In this document: piece after piece, positions 1,076 through 8,561 of the stretch
How the letters are laid out: each line of letters starts with the position of its first letter
How positions within the stretch are numbered: the first letter of the stretch is position 1
From: Herbidospora sakaeratensis
GTDB lineage: Bacteria > Actinomycetota > Actinomycetes > Streptosporangiales > Streptosporangiaceae
DNA: 64,000 nucleotides
Direction of reading: 5' to 3'
Assembly (NCBI RefSeq): GCF_001570525.1
Contig: NZ_BBXC01000022.1
Location: 1-64,000 of the forward strand
Translations under genes and position numbers: made by a program
The notes under the pieces: generated by a model
Seen by the model: the letters and a program-made list of their open reading frames with translations, nothing else
Databases searched by the model: none
What the model was told of the DNA's origin: nothing

Positions 1076-1308
1076 TCACCAGATGGCGGGCACCTGAAGG
1101 CCCAGACCGGATTAGGCGAGGCCCCTGGAGTGAAACACCCAGGCAACACGGTGGAAACGGCTATCTGGGCATCTGAAACTTTCAGTGCGAACGTGCTAGA
1201 TCAATCCATCGCACGAAATATCCCGTAACGCAACGTGCCCAAGCGGTTTCGCGAAGTGGCCCGTAGGCCGTACCCTCCCATAGTGACCTCTTGGGGGGTT
1301 TCTCAACG

Positions 1309-3426
1309 ATGACTGCAATTGCGCGCCATCTCATGCCATGTCCTGAGATCGGCGACTCGACCGGACCTACTGACCGCGCCCCCGCGCCGCCCGACACCCG
1401 GGACGCCGGGCCGCGGCCCGGCTCGCCCCTGTGGACCTACTTCGCCGCGATCATCACGATCGGCTTCACCGCCCTCGTCGTGGCGACCGTCCGGCTCGGC
1501 GGGCCCGAGCTGGGGCTGCTCGGCGCCGATCCGCTCTTCTGGGTGCTGGTCGTGCTGGTCGTGCTGGGCGAACTCCGGCCGGTGATGGTGAGCTCGTCCG
1601 CCCTCGTCGGGGGCACCCCCACCTCGACGATGTTCACGTTCGCGGTGCTCATGCACTACGGGTTGTCCGCCGCGGCGATCATGCAGGCCGTCGCGATGCT
1701 GGTCAGCGGGCTGGTGCACAAACGCGCCTGGCACCGGATCGCGTTCAACATCGCCCAGGTCACCCTCGCGTGCCTGGCCGCCGCCGTCACGTTCGGCATG
1801 TTCGGCGTGCACTCGCGGCCCATGAACCCCTGGACGCCCACCGGCGCCGACATCCCCGCCATCCTGCTTGCCGGGCTGGCGTACTTCCTGGTCAGGGGCC
1901 TGCTGGTGTGCGGGGCGGTGGCGCTGCACGAGCGCAAGACCGTGCTGCGCGTGCTGAAGACCTCGCTGGTGCCGCAGGGCCTCGTCTACGGGGCGCTGCT
2001 CGGCCTGTCGCCGCTGGTCGTGGTGGTGATGGAGCACTCCGCCGGGCTGGTGCCGCTGTTCGTGGCGCCCCTGGCGGCCGTCTACTTCACCGCGACGTTG
2101 TCGATGCGCCGCGACCACCAGGCGATGCACGACGGCCTGACCGGGCTGCCGAACCGCAAACTGCTCATCCTCCGTACGGAGGAGGCGCTCGCCGAGGCCC
2201 GCGCCGACGAACGGGTGGGCCTGCTGCTGCTCGACCTCGACCGGTTCAAAGAGGTAAACGACACCCTGGGCCACCCGGTCGGCGACCTGCTGCTGAAGAT
2301 CGTGGCCCATCGGCTGACCCACTCCGTCCGGCCCGGCGACGTCGTCGCGCGGCTCGGCGGCGACGAGTTCGCCGTGCTGCTGCCGCAGATCCGCGACGCC
2401 CAGGCGGCCAGGGAGGTGGCCGCCCGCCTGCGGGTCGCGCTGACCGAGCCGGTCCGGCTCGAAGGCATGACCTTCGACCTCGACGCGTCCATCGGCATCG
2501 CCCTCTACCCCGACCACGCCCCCGACTTCGAGCTGCTGCTCCAGCGGTCCGACGTGGCGATGTACATGGCCAAGGAGGCCCGCTCGGGCGTCGAGTTCTA
2601 CGTCGCCGAACGCGACCGCAACTCCCCCGAGCGCCTCAGCCTGCTCGGCGACCTGCGACGGGCCATCGACGGGGCCGAACTCGACCTCCACTACCAGCCC
2701 AAGGTGGCCCTCCAGGACGGCCGCGTCGAGGGCGTCGAGGCGCTGCTGCGCTGGTGGCACCCGGTACGCGGCCCCGTCTCGCCCGGGGAGTTCATCCCGC
2801 TGGCCGAGCAGTCCTACCTGATGCGCGAGCTCACCCAGTACGTCATCGCCAAGGCCCTCGACCAGGCCGCCCGCTGGTGGCACTCCGGCCTGGAGATCCC
2901 GATCTCGGTCAACGTGTCGGCCCGCGACCTGCTCGACTCGGGCCTGCCCGACCAGCTCTCGGCCGGCCTGGCCCGCTACTCGCTGCCCGCGAACGCCATC
3001 CATCTGGAGGTCACCGAGCGCATCCTGATGACCGACCAGGCCTACTCGGCCGACACCATCCGCACGCTGGCCGAACTGGGCGTACCCCTCGCGCTCGACG
3101 ACTTCGGCACGGGCTACTCGACGCTCGTCCGGCTGCAGCGGCTCCAGGTCGACGAGGTCAAGATCGACGCCTCGTTCGTCCGGAAGCTGGGGGAGTCGGC
3201 CGACGACGAGCGGATCGTGCGCTCGATCATCGATCTGGTCCGGTCGCTCGGATTGCGCGCCGTGGCCGAAGGGGTGGAATCGGCCGACATCGCCGCGCAA
3301 TTGCGGGGCATGGGCTGTCATGCCGGGCAAGGGTGGTGGCTCGCCGAACCCATGCCGGCCGAGGAGGCCGTCGTGTGGTTGCGGTCGCGGCTGCGGCTGC
3401 CGATGGCCACGGTCAGGGTGGAATAG
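1309..3426 (+). CDS. Membrane-bound GGDEF-EAL cyclic-di-GMP enzyme
   Basis: Makes and/or degrades c-di-GMP at the membrane. About six or seven hydrophobic segments occupy residues 42-260. The GGDEF domain follows, with an intact GGDEF at 350-354, then an EAL domain with intact EAL at 477-479, NVSARD, LEVTER, LDDFGTGYS and a late KID and AEGVE. Both catalytic signatures look complete, so a bifunctional enzyme is possible. The start chosen is ATG 1309, because the G-run at 1293-1298 makes a good ribosome site. A TTG at 1291 is in frame but would contain that site. It stands alone before gatC. Similar membrane GGDEF-EAL proteins affect development in Streptomyces, but a role here is inference. 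Confidence 0.9.
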   Translation: MTAIARHLMPCPEIGDSTGPTDRAPAPPDTRDAGPRPGSPLWTYFAAIITIGFTALVVATVRLGGPELGLLGADPLFWVLVVLVVLGELRPVMVSSSALVGGTPTSTMFTFAVLMHYGLSAAAIMQAVAMLVSGLVHKRAWHRIAFNIAQVTLACLAAAVTFGMFGVHSRPMNPWTPTGADIPAILLAGLAYFLVRGLLVCGAVALHERKTVLRVLKTSLVPQGLVYGALLGLSPLVVVVMEHSAGLVPLFVAPLAAVYFTATLSMRRDHQAMHDGLTGLPNRKLLILRTEEALAEARADERVGLLLLDLDRFKEVNDTLGHPVGDLLLKIVAHRLTHSVRPGDVVARLGGDEFAVLLPQIRDAQAAREVAARLRVALTEPVRLEGMTFDLDASIGIALYPDHAPDFELLLQRSDVAMYMAKEARSGVEFYVAERDRNSPERLSLLGDLRRAIDGAELDLHYQPKVALQDGRVEGVEALLRWWHPVRGPVSPGEFIPLAEQSYLMRELTQYVIAKALDQAARWWHSGLEIPISVNVSARDLLDSGLPDQLSAGLARYSLPANAIHLEVTERILMTDQAYSADTIRTLAELGVPLALDDFGTGYSTLVRLQRLQVDEVKIDASFVRKLGESADDERIVRSIIDLVRSLGLRAVAEGVESADIAAQLRGMGCHAGQGWWLAEPMPAEEAVVWLRSRLRLPMATVRVE

Positions 3427-3501: not shown

Positions 3502-3801
3502 ATGTCTGCCATAACCCGCGAAGAGGTCGCTCACCTCGCCCGGCTGTCCCGGCTGGCGCTGGCCGACGAGGAACTCGACCACTTCGCCGCCCAGCTCGAC
3601 CAGATCGTCGGCGCGGTCGCCCGCGTCGCCGAGGTCGCCACCGCCGACATCCCGCCGTCCTCGCACGCGCTTCCGCTGACGAACGTGTTCCGGCCCGATG
3701 TCGTCGCGCCCAGCCTCACGCCCGAGCAGGCCCTCTCCGGCGCGCCCGCCGTCGAGGACGACCGCTTCCGCGTGCCCCGCATCCTCGGGGAGGAGGCGTG
3801 A
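3502..3801 (+). CDS. gatC: Glutamyl-tRNA(Gln) amidotransferase subunit C
   Basis: Small subunit that clamps GatA and GatB in the amidotransferase that converts Glu-tRNA(Gln) to Gln-tRNA(Gln). It has 99 residues, the usual size. The N-terminus [15 protein letters not shown] and the later [13 protein letters not shown] and FRVPRIL are family hallmarks. It starts the gat operon and its stop overlaps the gatA start by 3 nt. The amidotransferase is needed because no glutaminyl-tRNA synthetase is seen here, and gltX plus tRNA-Gln lie further along the same window. Confidence 0.95.
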
Positions 3802-5291
3802 GCGAGCTGATCAAGAAGACGGCCGCCGAGCTGGGGTCCCTGATCGCGTCCGGCGAGGTCTCGGCCGTCGAGGTGACGCAGGCCCACCTCGACCGGATCG
3901 CCGCCGTCGACGACCGCGTCCACGCGTTCCTGCACGTGGGAGCCGAGTCGGCGCTCGCGCAGGCCGCCGCCGTCGACGCCAAGCGCGCCGCCGGCGCGGA
4001 GCTGGGCCCGCTGGCCGGCGTGCCGATCGCCCACAAGGACGTCTTCACCACGACCGACATGCCCACCACGGCCGGGTCGAAGATCCTCGAAGGCTGGCGC
4101 CCGCCCTACGACGCGACGGTGACGCGCCGTCTGCGCGAGGCCGGGCTGGTCATCCTGGGCAAGACCAACCTCGACGAGTTCGCGATGGGCTCCTCGACCG
4201 AGAACTCGGCCTACGGCCCGACCTGCAACCCGTGGGACCTGACCCGCATCCCGGGCGGCTCGTCGGGTGGCGCGTCGGCCTCGGTGGCGGCCTACGAGGC
4301 CCCCCTCTCGACCGGCACCGACACGGGCGGCTCGATCCGCCAGCCCGCCGCCGTGACCGGCATCGTCGGCATGAAGCCGACCTACGGCGGGTCGTCCCGC
4401 TACGGCCTGATCGCCTTCGCGTCGTCGCTCGACACCCCGGGCCCGTTCGCCCGCAACGTGCTCGACGCCGCGCTGCTCCACGAGGCGTTCTCCGGCCACG
4501 ACCCGATGGACTCGACCTCGATCGACCAGCCCGTGCCCTCGGTGGTCGAGGCCGCCCGGCAGGGCGACGTCGCGGGGCTGACCGTCGGCGTGGTCAAGGA
4601 GTTCGGCGGCGACGGCTACCAGCCGGGCGTGCTCGCCCGCTTCCAGGAGGCCGTCGAACTGCTCGAATCCCTCGGCGCCAAGGTCGTCGAGGTGTCGTGT
4701 CCCTCGTTCACCTACGCGCTGCCGGCCTATTACCTGATCGCGCCGTCCGAGTGCTCGTCCAACCTGGCCCGGTTCGACGCCATGCGCTACGGGCTGCGGG
4801 TCGGCGACGACGGCACCCGCTCGGCCGAAGAGGTCATGGCCCTGACCCGGGCGGCCGGCTTCGGCCCCGAGGTCAAGCGGCGCATCATGCTCGGCACCTA
4901 CGCGCTGTCCTCGGGCTACTACGACGCCTACTACGGGTCGGCCCAGAAGGTCCGCACCCTCATCTCGCGTGACTTCGAGGCCGCGTTCCAGCACGTCGAC
5001 GTGCTGATCTCGCCGACGACGCCGACGACGGCGTTCCCGATCGGCGAGCGCGCCGACGACCCGATGGCCATGTACCTGGCCGACCTGTGCACCATCCCGT
5101 CGAACCTGGCCGGCAACGCGGCCCTGTCGGTGCCGTGCGGTCTCGCCGACGAAGACGGGCTGCCCGTCGGCCTGCAGATCATGGCCCCAGTGCTCGGCGA
5201 CGACCGGTGCTACCGGGTGGGCGCCGCGGTCGAGCGGGCGTTCGAGGCCCGCTGGGGCGGGCCGCTGCTGTCCAAGGCCCCGGCCCTGTAG
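3798..5291 (+). CDS. gatA: Glutamyl-tRNA(Gln) amidotransferase subunit A
   Basis: Glutaminase/amidase subunit; it releases ammonia from Gln for GatB. It has 497 residues, with the amidase-signature core: the catalytic Lys in [10 protein letters not shown], the Gly/Ser-rich GGSSGGASA and the Ser-cis-Ser region in [12 protein letters not shown]. The start is GTG 3798, sharing GTGA with the gatC stop, with AGGAGG only 1 nt upstream. The SD spacing is tight, so coupling to gatC is likely. The normal partner gatB does not follow directly; two unrelated genes sit between. Confidence 0.95.
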
Positions 5292-5323
5292 ACGGCCCTG
5301 GAGAAACAGGGAAGGAGGGCGGC

Positions 5324-6472
5324 ATGATCACTCATATTCGGATCGACGGCTTCAAGTCGTTCCTGGATTTCGAGCTGGACGTGCCGCCCCTTCTTGCCTT
5401 GGTGGGCCCCAACTCAAGCGGAAAGTCGAACTTCTTCGACGCACTGGATTTCGTGAAATCCAGCGGGCTCATCAACGGTGAACCACTCAGAGGGCGCTAT
5501 CGGGACCAGTTCCACCATGTGAGCAAGGGGCTCGAGATCGCCGATCTCAGTGTCGGGGTGAAGGCGCTCACCTGGACTCCACTGGGCCTGCTGCCGTTTG
5601 ACTACGCGGCGACGGCGACGGGTGAGCGAGGGCTGGCTCCAGACTCGGAGCTGGTCCTGTCGTCTTTCGACTCTGCGGGACTTGGCCAGTTCGGAGATCT
5701 GAAGTCCCCGCTTCAAGTGGCGGCCGACATGTTCAAGCTGCATAAACGTCATCCCGATTCGCCCCTCTTTGCCATTTTTTTTCCCTATGAATTGCGAACC
5801 TGGCGGCTCTACAAGCCAGATCCCGACCGAATGCGCGGACTCGGTGACGGGGTGGATAGCGGACCCCTTACTTCGGATGGCAGCAACCTTGCGGCTGTCT
5901 TGGGCCGGATTAGACGTACCGGCGTCTTTGAGGACCTGCTCAATGACTTCATCGCGCTGACGCCTGATGTGGTGGATCTTGTGCCCTACCTCGACGAACG
6001 CCGCCATGAATGGGCTTTTGACGTGGTCATCGACGGCCAGGGCGATGTCTCCAGCACATTGCTGTCCGACGGCACGCTTCGGATTCTCGGGCTGCTGGCC
6101 GCAATCCACGACCCTGACCATGCGGGCACCCTCCTCATTGAGGAGGTCGAGAACGGTCTGCACCCCAGCCGGTTGGCTGAGCTACTCCGCCGGATCGAAC
6201 GCAAGATCACTGACATGGATGATCCCGCCACGCTGAACGAGCCGCTGCGTCAGGTCATCATGACCACCCACTCTCCGGTGGTCGTCTCGGAGCTCTATCG
6301 GCTGCGCCGTGAATCGCTGATCTTCCTGAACACGGCTGTTCGCGTCGACCCGGAGAGCGACCGGGTCTCCCGGGTCACCGTCGCCAAGCCCGTCCGCGAT
6401 GAGGGCGAGCCTGGCACCTTCGTTTCACCCCGTCAGGTCCGGGCCTTCCTGAGCACCGTCGGAACGGTCTGA
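5324..6472 (+). CDS. AAA family ATPase (AAA_21/OLD-like) inserted in the gat operon
   Basis: A 382-residue ABC/SMC-type ATPase. Visible motifs are Walker A GPNSSGKS (28-35), a signature-like LLSDGTLR, Walker [11 protein letters not shown] (about 269-278) and the switch His in TTHSP (H316). The start is ATG 5324 behind GAAGGAGGG. Its stop overlaps the next gene (TGATG). ATPases of this class work with a Toprim or HNH partner in phage-defence pairs such as PARIS, AbiL and Septu, and the neighbour fits that pattern. Local GC is low: 30 of 60 bases at 5761-5820, whereas housekeeping genes here sit near 70%. This suggests acquisition. The defence role is inference; a DNA-repair role is the alternative. 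Confidence 0.85.
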
Positions 6473-7059
6473 TGGCTCGACCGCTGGTGCCTGGTTTGGT
6501 GGCGGAAGGTCGCGAGGACGAGGACTTTCTCGGTGCGGTCATCTACCGCCAGCTCCGCGAGCTCACGCTTGCATCCGCCACCAGTGCGGTCGACGTCGAG
6601 CCGACCCAGATCGGCTCCTGCCGGTCCATCCGCGATCACCGAAGCGTGGCGGAGGCGTTGGCCGAACTATCCGGCGACTGCCACGTGTTGTTCGTACACA
6701 ACGACATGAAAGAGCGGCACAAGGCCGAGCAGGTCATCGGCGCCTGCCGGTTACGGGCACCGGTGATCGGTCTCGTCCCCGTCAAAGAGACCGAAGCCCG
6801 GATGCTGGCCGATCGCCGGGCGTGGGCCGACATCAGAAGGGCGAATCTCGACGCGCTTCCGGCGCGGCCAAGAGACGTCGAGGGCGTCGGCGACCCGAAG
6901 CAGGCACTCAAAGACGTCATCCCGCGCAAGAGCGACGCCGCAGACTACGCAAAACGAATCGGACAGACAATCGATCTCGACACGCTGGCCCAGGTTCCCG
7001 CCTACAAGGACTGGGTCACGCGGACGAACACTGTGTTGAAGGGACTCGGTTACCTATGA
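6472..7059 (+). CDS. DUF4276-like (Toprim-fold) protein, partner of the AAA ATPase
   Basis: 195 residues. The N-terminal [10 protein letters not shown] matches the acidic first motif of DUF4276/Toprim proteins. HNDMKER gives a candidate second acidic site, and [11 protein letters not shown] followed by DPKQALKDV matches the EAWLLAD and PK blocks typical of DUF4276. Toprim proteins of this type act as nucleases next to AAA ATPases in abortive-infection systems; that function is inferred here. The start overlaps the ATPase stop by 1 nt, and its stop overlaps the gatB start (ATGA), so it is translated as part of the gat operon. Confidence 0.75.
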
Positions 7060-8561
7060 GCACTCCTACGCTCATGCCGTACGACGAGGCGTTGGAGAGG
7101 TTCGAGCCGGTGCTCGGCCTGGAGACCCACGTCGAACTCGGCACCCGCTCGAAGATGTTCTGCGGCTGCCCGACCACCTTCGGGGCCCCGCCGAACACCC
7201 ACGTCTGCCCGACCTGCCTGGCCTTCCCGGGCGCGCTCCCGGTCGCCAACGCGGCGGCGATCGAGTCGACGATCCGTATCGGCCTGGCCCTCAACTGCTC
7301 GATCGCCGAGTGGTGCAGGTTCGCCCGGAAGAACTACTTCTATCCGGACATGCCGAAGAACTACCAGATCAGCCAGTACGACGAGCCTCTCTGCTTCGAC
7401 GGCTACCTCGACATCACCGTCGAGGGCAAGACCGTGCGGATCGAGATCGAGCGCGTCCACCTGGAGGAGGACACCGGCAAGTCGACCCACGTCGGTGGCG
7501 CGACCGGCCGCATCCAGGGGGCCGACCACTCGATCGTCGACTACAACCGGGCGGGCATCCCGCTGGTCGAGATCGTCACCAAGCCGATCGAGGGCACCGA
7601 CCGGCTCGCGCCCGAGGTCGCCCGCGCCTACGCGACCGAGCTGCGCGAGGTCATGCGGTCGCTGGGCGTCTCCGACGTCCGCATGGACCAGGGCTCGATG
7701 CGCTGCGACGTCAACGTCTCGCTGATGCCGCGCGGCTCGTCCGAGTGGGGCACCCGCACCGAGACCAAGAACGTCAACTCCTTCCGCAGCGTCGAGCGGT
7801 CGGTCCGCGGTGAGATCGAGCGGCAGGCGGCGATCCTGGCCGAGGGCGGCCGGATCATCCAGGAGACCCGCCACTTCCACGAGGACACCGGGCTGACCAC
7901 CTCGGGCCGCTCGAAGGAAGAGGCCCAGGACTACCGCTACTTCCCCGAGCCCGACCTGGTGCCGATCGCGCCCGACCCGGCGTGGGTGGCGCGGCTCAAG
8001 GCCGAGCTGCCCGAGCTGCCGTCGGTGCGCCGCACGCGGCTGCAGGCCGAGTGGGGCGTCAGCGACCTCGACATGGCCGCCATGCACAACGCCGACGCGT
8101 TCGGCCTGGTCGAGGCGACCGTCGAGGCGGGCGCCCCGGCGGCCGACGCGCGCAAGTGGTGGATGGGCGAGCTGGCCCGCCGCGCCAACGAGAACGGCGT
8201 CGCGCTGGCCGAGCTGCCGATCACCCCGGCGCAGATCGCGCGGGTGACCGAGCTGGTGAAGTCGGGCGCGCTGAACGACAAGCTGGCCCGTCAGGTGCTC
8301 GAAGGCGTGCTCGCGGGGGAGGGCTCGCCCGACGAGGTCGTCGAGGCCCGCGGCCTGAAGATCGTCAACGACGAGGGCGAACTGTCGGCCATCATCGACC
8401 AGGTCATCGCCGGCAACGCCGACGCCGCCGACAAGATCCGGGGCGGCAAGATCGCCGCCGTGGGCGCCCTCGTGGGCGGGGTCATGAAGGCCAGCCGAGG
8501 CAAGGCCGACGCCGGCCGCGCCCGCGCCCTCATCCTCGAGAAGCTGGGCGTCAGCGAATAA
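7056..8561 (+). CDS. gatB: Aspartyl/glutamyl-tRNA amidotransferase subunit B
   Basis: Activates Glu-tRNA(Gln) with ATP and transfers ammonia to it. It has 501 residues. Family blocks are [19 protein letters not shown] near the start, [25 protein letters not shown]-type [26 protein letters not shown] and the C-terminal Yqey-like tail. The start ATG 7056 overlaps the stop of the upstream DUF4276 gene by 4 nt, so its translation now probably depends on ribosomes finishing that foreign gene. A strong terminator follows. Confidence 0.96.

Follow-up and report, generated by a model that had tools for sequence, protein, structure and literature searches.

A hypervariable HEC-01-like gene pair, a candidate defence cassette, recurs between gatA and gatB and carries the likely gatB ribosome-binding site

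The window, i.e. the entire analysed stretch of 64,000 nt of the soil actinomycete Herbidospora sakaeratensis (contig NZ_BBXC01000022.1), contains a gat operon in which two further genes are placed between gatA and gatB (Table 1). The name gatC is our assignment, taken from its place upstream of gatA and from its family. Directly 5' of it, positions 1291-3426 encode a protein which we take, from its motifs, to be of the GGDEF/EAL type. A previous reading of the letters alone (below, the sequence-only reading) had described a two-gene cassette with overlapping frames, seamless junctions and lowered GC content. The ORF coordinates agree with this description, both overlaps are present, and the count of 30 G or C among the 60 nt at 5761-5820 is exact. 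The GC content of the cassette is 0.622, compared to 0.726 for gatA, 0.705 for gatB and 0.696 for the window; GC3 is 0.74 and 0.78 for the two cassette genes versus 0.97. The two cassette genes also overlap in most relatives (-1 or -4). The GGAGG in front of the ATPase gene probably serves this gene as ribosome-binding site, and the spacer in which the motif lies has little room for a promoter. The cassette is the sole copy found in its own genome at E ≤ 0.001, the second DNA match being a 27-bp stretch.

Table 1. Features of the gat locus in the window
Feature	Position	Strand	Basis
gatC	3502..3801	+	ORF, 99 aa
gatA	3798..5291	+	ORF, 497 aa; matches in 192/200 family genomes
gatA-ATPase spacer, 32 nt, with GGAGG	5292..5323	+	sequence
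HEC-01A-like ATPase gene, 382 aa	5324..6472	+	Pfam, PADLOC, structure model
Hypervariable ATPase middle, about residues 45-155	5456..5788	+	window identities, dS
TGATG stop/start overlap of ATPase gene and second gene	6470..6474	+	sequence
HEC-01B-like DUF4276-type gene (B), 195 aa	6472..7059	+	PADLOC HEC-01B, E = 1.6e-31
GAAGGGA, likely gatB Shine-Dalgarno, within codons of the B tail (...LKGLGYL)	7038..7044	+	sequence, anti-Shine-Dalgarno pairing energies
ATGA overlap of gatB start and B stop	7056..7059	+	sequence
gatB	7056..8561	+	ORF, 501 aa; matches in 195/200 family genomes

The first cassette protein matched AAA_21 of Pfam (E = 3.5e-32), which bears out its earlier description as an AAA_21-type ATPase, and HEC-01A (PDLC04184, E = 1e-71) was the top of 117 PADLOC families. 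It has a Walker motif and a Walker B motif (LLIEEVEN). The structure model (pLDDT 88.5) had retron/Septu PtuA complexes and SMC heads as its top PDB neighbours (E between 1e-14 and 1e-12). The AriA model of the PARIS system also matched the ATPase (6e-32), and matches to GajA (2.4e-16) and the OLD chain 6p74 (6.4e-5) were weak. In G010 (L063:1576-3612) the ATPase and B are fused into a single reading frame, and this fusion suggests that the two proteins may act as a complex.

The second protein, B, matched HEC-01B (PDLC04210), as did all 42 aligned B proteins. By these profile matches, the pair corresponds to the candidate defence pair HEC-01A/B of PADLOC; what had been called a two-gene defence pair in the gat operon stands as a candidate, with a presumptive defence role. 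DUF4276 (PF14103) was matched by 40 of the 42 aligned B proteins (best E = 3.9e-12). The window's protein is part of this set of 42, but a search with it alone returned no Pfam model at E ≤ 1, and the earlier DUF4276 label is probable by way of the group. Residues E12, G13, D16, H76, D78, E108, E137 and K143 are near-invariant. So are the EGxxD, HxD and ETEAW positions, whose acidic residues are mostly kept outside one clade; EGxxD and HxD are taken by us to be Toprim-type motifs. B is a probable Toprim-like nuclease, judging from these residues. Its structure model is confident (pLDDT 91.6) and had no structural match in the PDB at E ≤ 0.001, for which reason the Toprim fold stays putative; a profile search of the PDB gave none below 0.07. 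Codon CGG at 6799-6801 places Arg at position 110 of the window's B. In a 95-row alignment, all other B proteins that are not gapped at this position have Trp; W110R may impair the window's B.

Positions of gatA and gatB were collected from 200 family genomes, in 136 of which both genes were among the matches listed, closer relatives being over-represented. The gatA-gatB gap was below 300 bp in 71 of the 136, 300-1200 bp in 3, 1200-2600 bp in 49 and larger in 13. All 49 gaps of 1.2-2.6 kb contain the pair in identical order and strand. Two of the 13 gaps above 2.6 kb hold cassettes, namely two in tandem in G039 and one plus other sequence in G065, and 11 are without. In this first survey the cassette was present in 51 of 136 genomes and 20 of 47 genera, damaged copies such as those of G141 (deletion in B) and G101 (fusing deletion) included. 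A wider search, in which 142 of 341 genomes passed the strict E limit, newly listed 55 genomes, 43 of them belonging to g4 (Nonomuraea), and added 18 cassettes. The comparison of gatA-gatB spacing which the sequence-only reading had proposed therefore yields 69 cassette-bearing genomes among 191 of the family. The pair does lie between gatA and gatB as that reading had it; the word "spliced" fits less well, for the slot is recurrent across genera and orders and not the site of a single splice. A general insertion hotspot was considered and finds no support in this set of genomes, as the same pair filled every one of the 49 gaps. Four of the 11 cassette-free large gaps were inspected (L074, L079, L082, L083), and each has at least one minus-strand gene presumably encoding a TQXA-type thioester surface protein; such a gene is also found beside the cassette of G065. 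The gaps of 3-3.8 kb without the pair occur in a different group of genera.

Named loci found with the ATPase alignment, the best 80 of 368 confirmed and partly from the same genomes as the survey, had a B partner by HMM in 48 cases. The pair is located between gatA and gatB in 22 of 24 named actinomycete pairs, including Micromonosporaceae and a Kitasatospora; of the 24 pairs belonging to other phyla, none had a gat gene in the fetched stretch (flanks ≤ 5 kb). Among 131 Micromonosporaceae genomes, 11 had a B match with E < 1e-20. Nine of these matches share the strand of gatB and precede it by 82 bp to 5.5 kb (one, in G573, with an internal stop), and the other two are a fragment about 10 kb upstream of gatB (G673) and a match 200 kb away (G562). 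Seven further Micromonosporaceae genomes had solely weaker B matches, elsewhere. At four Micromonosporaceae loci (L100, L109, L111, L159), at least 1.4 kb of extra sequence separates B from gatB, with gene-like frames in the case of L100 and L159. A class-wide search matched B in 21 of 394 genomes, 14 in the family and 7 outside, the latter with 5e-18 as their best E. No gat genes were present within 1.5 kb on either side of these seven; either the matches are located elsewhere or flanks of this size are too short. G091 (L190) has a second, distant ATPase and B pair on another contig, with no gat matches in its 1.5-kb flanks, and two Streptomyces pairs (L095:5001-6786, L096:5001-6693) occupy a shared non-gat site with similar genes on both sides. 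On a tree of 64 B proteins chosen from all, the gat-embedded ones need 2 label changes, and just two Streptomyces sequences are nested among them; the Kitasatospora protein groups with that of G075 (g5), and a weak branch leads to other phyla. Regarding a phage, plasmid or viral origin, no mobile vector was found: the phage search gave one ATPase match, the plasmid search two distant Streptomyces B matches (31%), and IMG/VR four ATPases, none with B.

Trees of the ATPase and of B were computed for 49 cassettes, omitting fused or start-less ones, and both resolve the same two deep types with 33 and 16 members. Types I and II are about 30% identical and interchange among close species with near-identical gat genes. 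The gatA+gatB tree of 50 genomes requires at least 12 changes between types. The scatter of type II over it, with 13 changes, is nearly that of shuffled data, for which the mean was 15.2 and 38 of 500 shuffles were as low. Herbidospora alone comprises three type I cassettes, three type II cassettes and one scar, and in g65 (Microbispora) the type I genome G070 and the type II genome G141 have gatA and gatB genes that are 96-100% identical along their length. Between type I Herbidospora, identity in windows of the ATPase middle is 14-40%, the ends reach 98%, and B is 82-97% identical. dS and omega were calculated for 19 chosen pairs. For the ATPase middle, all three type I pairs of Herbidospora gave a dS that was either saturated or between 1.2 and 2.4 (gatA, 0.13-0.24), and three of the four type I pairs of Microbispora gave 1.2-1.3; gatA was at 0.11-0.24 over both sets. 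The middle has been exchanged in addition to any selection, since its dS is far above that of gatA. Pure positive selection is an insufficient explanation, as dS there is very high too. In the fourth Microbispora pair (G122/G177), cassette dS (0.17) is lower than gatA dS (0.345), a sign of recent transfer. In the variable lineages, the middle part of the ATPase is both hypervariable and recombined.

One clade behaves differently. In g6 (Streptosporangium), g16 and g58 (Planomonospora) and g44, the cassette is present in 23 of 23 genomes. The 16 genomes from which both genes were extracted have ATPases of 362-363 aa and a normal GC content (0.70-0.77). Nine pairs tested from the clade gave omega values of 0.12-0.37 (ATPase) and 0.09-0.30 (B); the ratio of cassette dS to gatA dS was about 1 to 2.3, which is consistent with mainly vertical descent. 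All 16 aligned B proteins of the clade are without Lys143, and several are without D78, H76, E12 or D16. These losses point to a role that has changed or is fading in this clade and, together with the normal GC content, look like housekeeping or a relic. The sequence-only reading had named a cassette fixed in most relatives with normal base composition as evidence against itself; this pattern was found in the one clade (23 genomes, GC in 16), but not in Herbidospora, which has cassettes of both types next to a scar.

Leaving the scar G088 aside, gatB begins within the end of B, with overlapping start and stop codons, in 34 of the 51 first-survey cassettes. Overlap coupling is not universal, because a leader intervenes between B and gatB in the other 17. 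A likely Shine-Dalgarno of gatB was located within the last codons of B (encoding LKGLGYL or LEGLGYQHG) or in the leader. If gatA directly adjoins gatB, the Shine-Dalgarno is usually in the gatA tail (KEAPAL or KEAPSL, AAGGAGG). Counting only sites with fetched sequence and ignoring relatedness, AAGGAGG is present in the gatA tail at 30 of 41 sites with a gap below 45 nt, in 0 of 69 cassette genomes, the window's included, and in 0 of 22 scars; five of the 11 short gaps without it are g4 genomes with a short leader. The contrast, likewise uncorrected for relatedness, also appears inside one genus: for the 43 newly fetched g4 genomes, AAGGAGG was found in 22 of 22 direct overlaps versus 0 of 21 others. 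Median Shine-Dalgarno pairing energies are alike across arrangements (-12.7, -12.2 and -12.4), single sites ranging from -14.6 to -2.7. The cassette seems hard to lose cleanly, because the likely ribosome-binding site of the next essential gene lies inside. The proposal that gatB translation is tied to the cassette gains from this site and from scars which keep the junction; translational dependence itself is what we infer from them.

That the wiring would prevent loss, as had also been proposed, does not hold, as 22 genomes look like deletion scars, two of them (G747 and G724) weakly recognisable. The remnants occupy short gaps in several genera, and nine of them stay in frame up to the gatB start. 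A mini-ORF that begins at the start codon of the ATPase gene and closes with the stop codon of B, in overlap with gatB, was found in G003 (Herbidospora), in four species of g23, and in G015, G140 and G687 (Microbispora). In G043 (L266), gatA is fused in frame to the eight-residue B tail EGLGYQHG, the stop of which overlaps the gatB start. The scars of G100, G684 and G088 are out of frame, that of G182 has no recognisable start and that of G044 has a new start. Counting the g23 species as one event, 6 of 9 events are in frame (P = 0.042 against one third; a small post hoc test), or 6 of 11 (P = 0.12) when G182 and G044 are counted as failures. None of the eight leader-type scars has a frame overlapping the gatB start; in one of them, G751, a frame that begins with the start codon of the ATPase gene stays open for 25 codons and ends 13 nt before gatB. 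Depending on how G751, G044 and G182 are counted, Fisher's test of the contrast with the leader-type scars gives values from 0.009 to 0.15. In-frame scars were considered as strong proof of the wiring and, given the small post hoc test and the leader-type control, were reduced to suggestive.

Our main reading, to which we assign a probability of about 0.65, is that the window carries a lineage of HEC-01, a candidate anti-phage system, which is specific to the gat slot. An essential operon would thereby house a hypervariable immune cassette that is firmly tied to it by the ribosome-binding site of gatB. The SMC/PtuA-like ATPase with its swappable middle would probably sense an infection trigger, hold the DUF4276 Toprim-like nuclease and then release or activate it, and B would cut DNA or RNA. 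The pair is probably co-transcribed with the gat operon from the fixed gatA-gatB slot, and strains would exchange it by recombination in near-identical gat flanks. Clean removal should leave gatB poorly translated, because the B tail holds the likely Shine-Dalgarno and the gatA-encoded one is absent with cassette or scar. For the same reasons, losses would tend toward junction-keeping scars. An ATPase sensor with a swappable domain that controls a nuclease, as in PARIS, is the best-supported working model.

The wiring is the part of this reading with the most probable alternative. The gat flanks could merely be convenient homology for exchange and expression, the ribosome-binding site in B then being a by-product without a retention effect. 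The leader-type cassettes, the full losses, the uniform median pairing energies and the weak scar statistics speak for such a safe harbour, which is possible in our view, though we tend to doubt it: AAGGAGG is missing from the gatA tail in 91 of 91 cassette or scar genomes examined, and the coupled scars retain the B tail, in G043 even fused to gatA.

The function of the pair could be another one as well. It might be a toxin-antitoxin or selfish addiction pair instead of a phage defence system, as Pfam describes AAA_21 as a putative AbiEii toxin of type IV TA, and the overlapping two-gene structure and slot-specific persistence would suit it. We consider this unlikely, considering that the closest curated models are HEC-01 defence candidates and that repeated deletion has left scars in live genomes; a hypervariable sensor-like domain is also not known to be typical of toxin-antitoxin systems. 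Alternatively, the pair might be a housekeeping accessory of GatCAB which regulates or protects tRNA-dependent amidation, ancestral to the operon and lost in many lineages. Its fixation in one clade with normal GC and purifying selection, its association with gat genes in Streptosporangiaceae, in Micromonosporaceae and in a Kitasatospora, and the mere two label changes on the B tree speak in favour. A housekeeping accessory is nevertheless quite improbable given that the roughly 30% identical types swap between near-identical gat loci, that the ATPase middle is hypervariable and recombined and GC3 low in the variable lineages, that the pair is confined to a minority of genomes and often deleted, and that none of the 24 pairs in other phyla was near gat within the fetched flanks.

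In a far-reaching extension of the defence reading, which we regard as a long shot, the tie to GatCAB would be functional, with the nuclease acting on, or the ATPase sensing, tRNA-Gln/Asn amidation needed by phages; the Streptosporangium/Planomonospora pair would be domesticated and nuclease-dead, and the cassette would keep itself by the captured ribosome-binding site. If true, immune alleles would belong in the gat operon because of that action or sensing. Defence genes are usually found in islands, prophages or plasmids and are easily lost. Here, an essential translation operon is the exchange locus for a hypervariable, probable immune cassette which holds the likely ribosome-binding site of gatB. 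This is a possible route for accessory immunity to become hard to lose and, in one clade, possibly to be domesticated. The gatA-gatB gap is also a simple place to mine actinomycete immune alleles.

The ATPase model shares its best PDB neighbours, PtuA complexes and retron I-A among them, with Septu and retron systems. The Septu partner is the HNH nuclease PtuB, whereas the partner in the window is of the DUF4276 type without an HNH or PtuB match, and the operon genes seen here are gatC, gatA, the pair and gatB. OLD and Gabija follow an ATPase plus Toprim-like logic, and GajA and an OLD chain are weakly matched; in the window pair, however, ATPase and effector are separate proteins. The helicase partner GajB of Gabija was not matched by the window's B and weakly (0.00036) by 1 of 42 aligned B proteins. 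PARIS (AriA/AriB) also combines an ATPase with a small effector, and AriB is described as a Toprim tRNA nuclease (PMC12409363). B had 6 matches at E ≤ 1, none of them to an AriB model. The sequence-only reading had likened the pair to PARIS and AbiL; in the PADLOC search the pair is closer to HEC-01 than to either.

HEC-01 (Hma-embedded candidate 1 of PADLOC-DB) is the closest relative: both window proteins match its models, and the genes are adjacent on the same strand. Its gene models are not known to require an Hma context. HEC-01 is already known, and no printed description of the gat slot was found in the literature covered, which was incomplete; neither a defence pair in a gat operon nor a DUF4276 paper was met with in a search that mostly left subscription papers and preprints outside. 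Several HECs, including HEC-06, were shown to be antiviral in a study whose accessible part does not name HEC-01 (PMC12988326). HEC-01 was named for the Hma context; the window pair is instead flanked by gatA and gatB and, compared to HEC-01, constitutes a slot-specific lineage with the likely ribosome-binding site of gatB in its tail.
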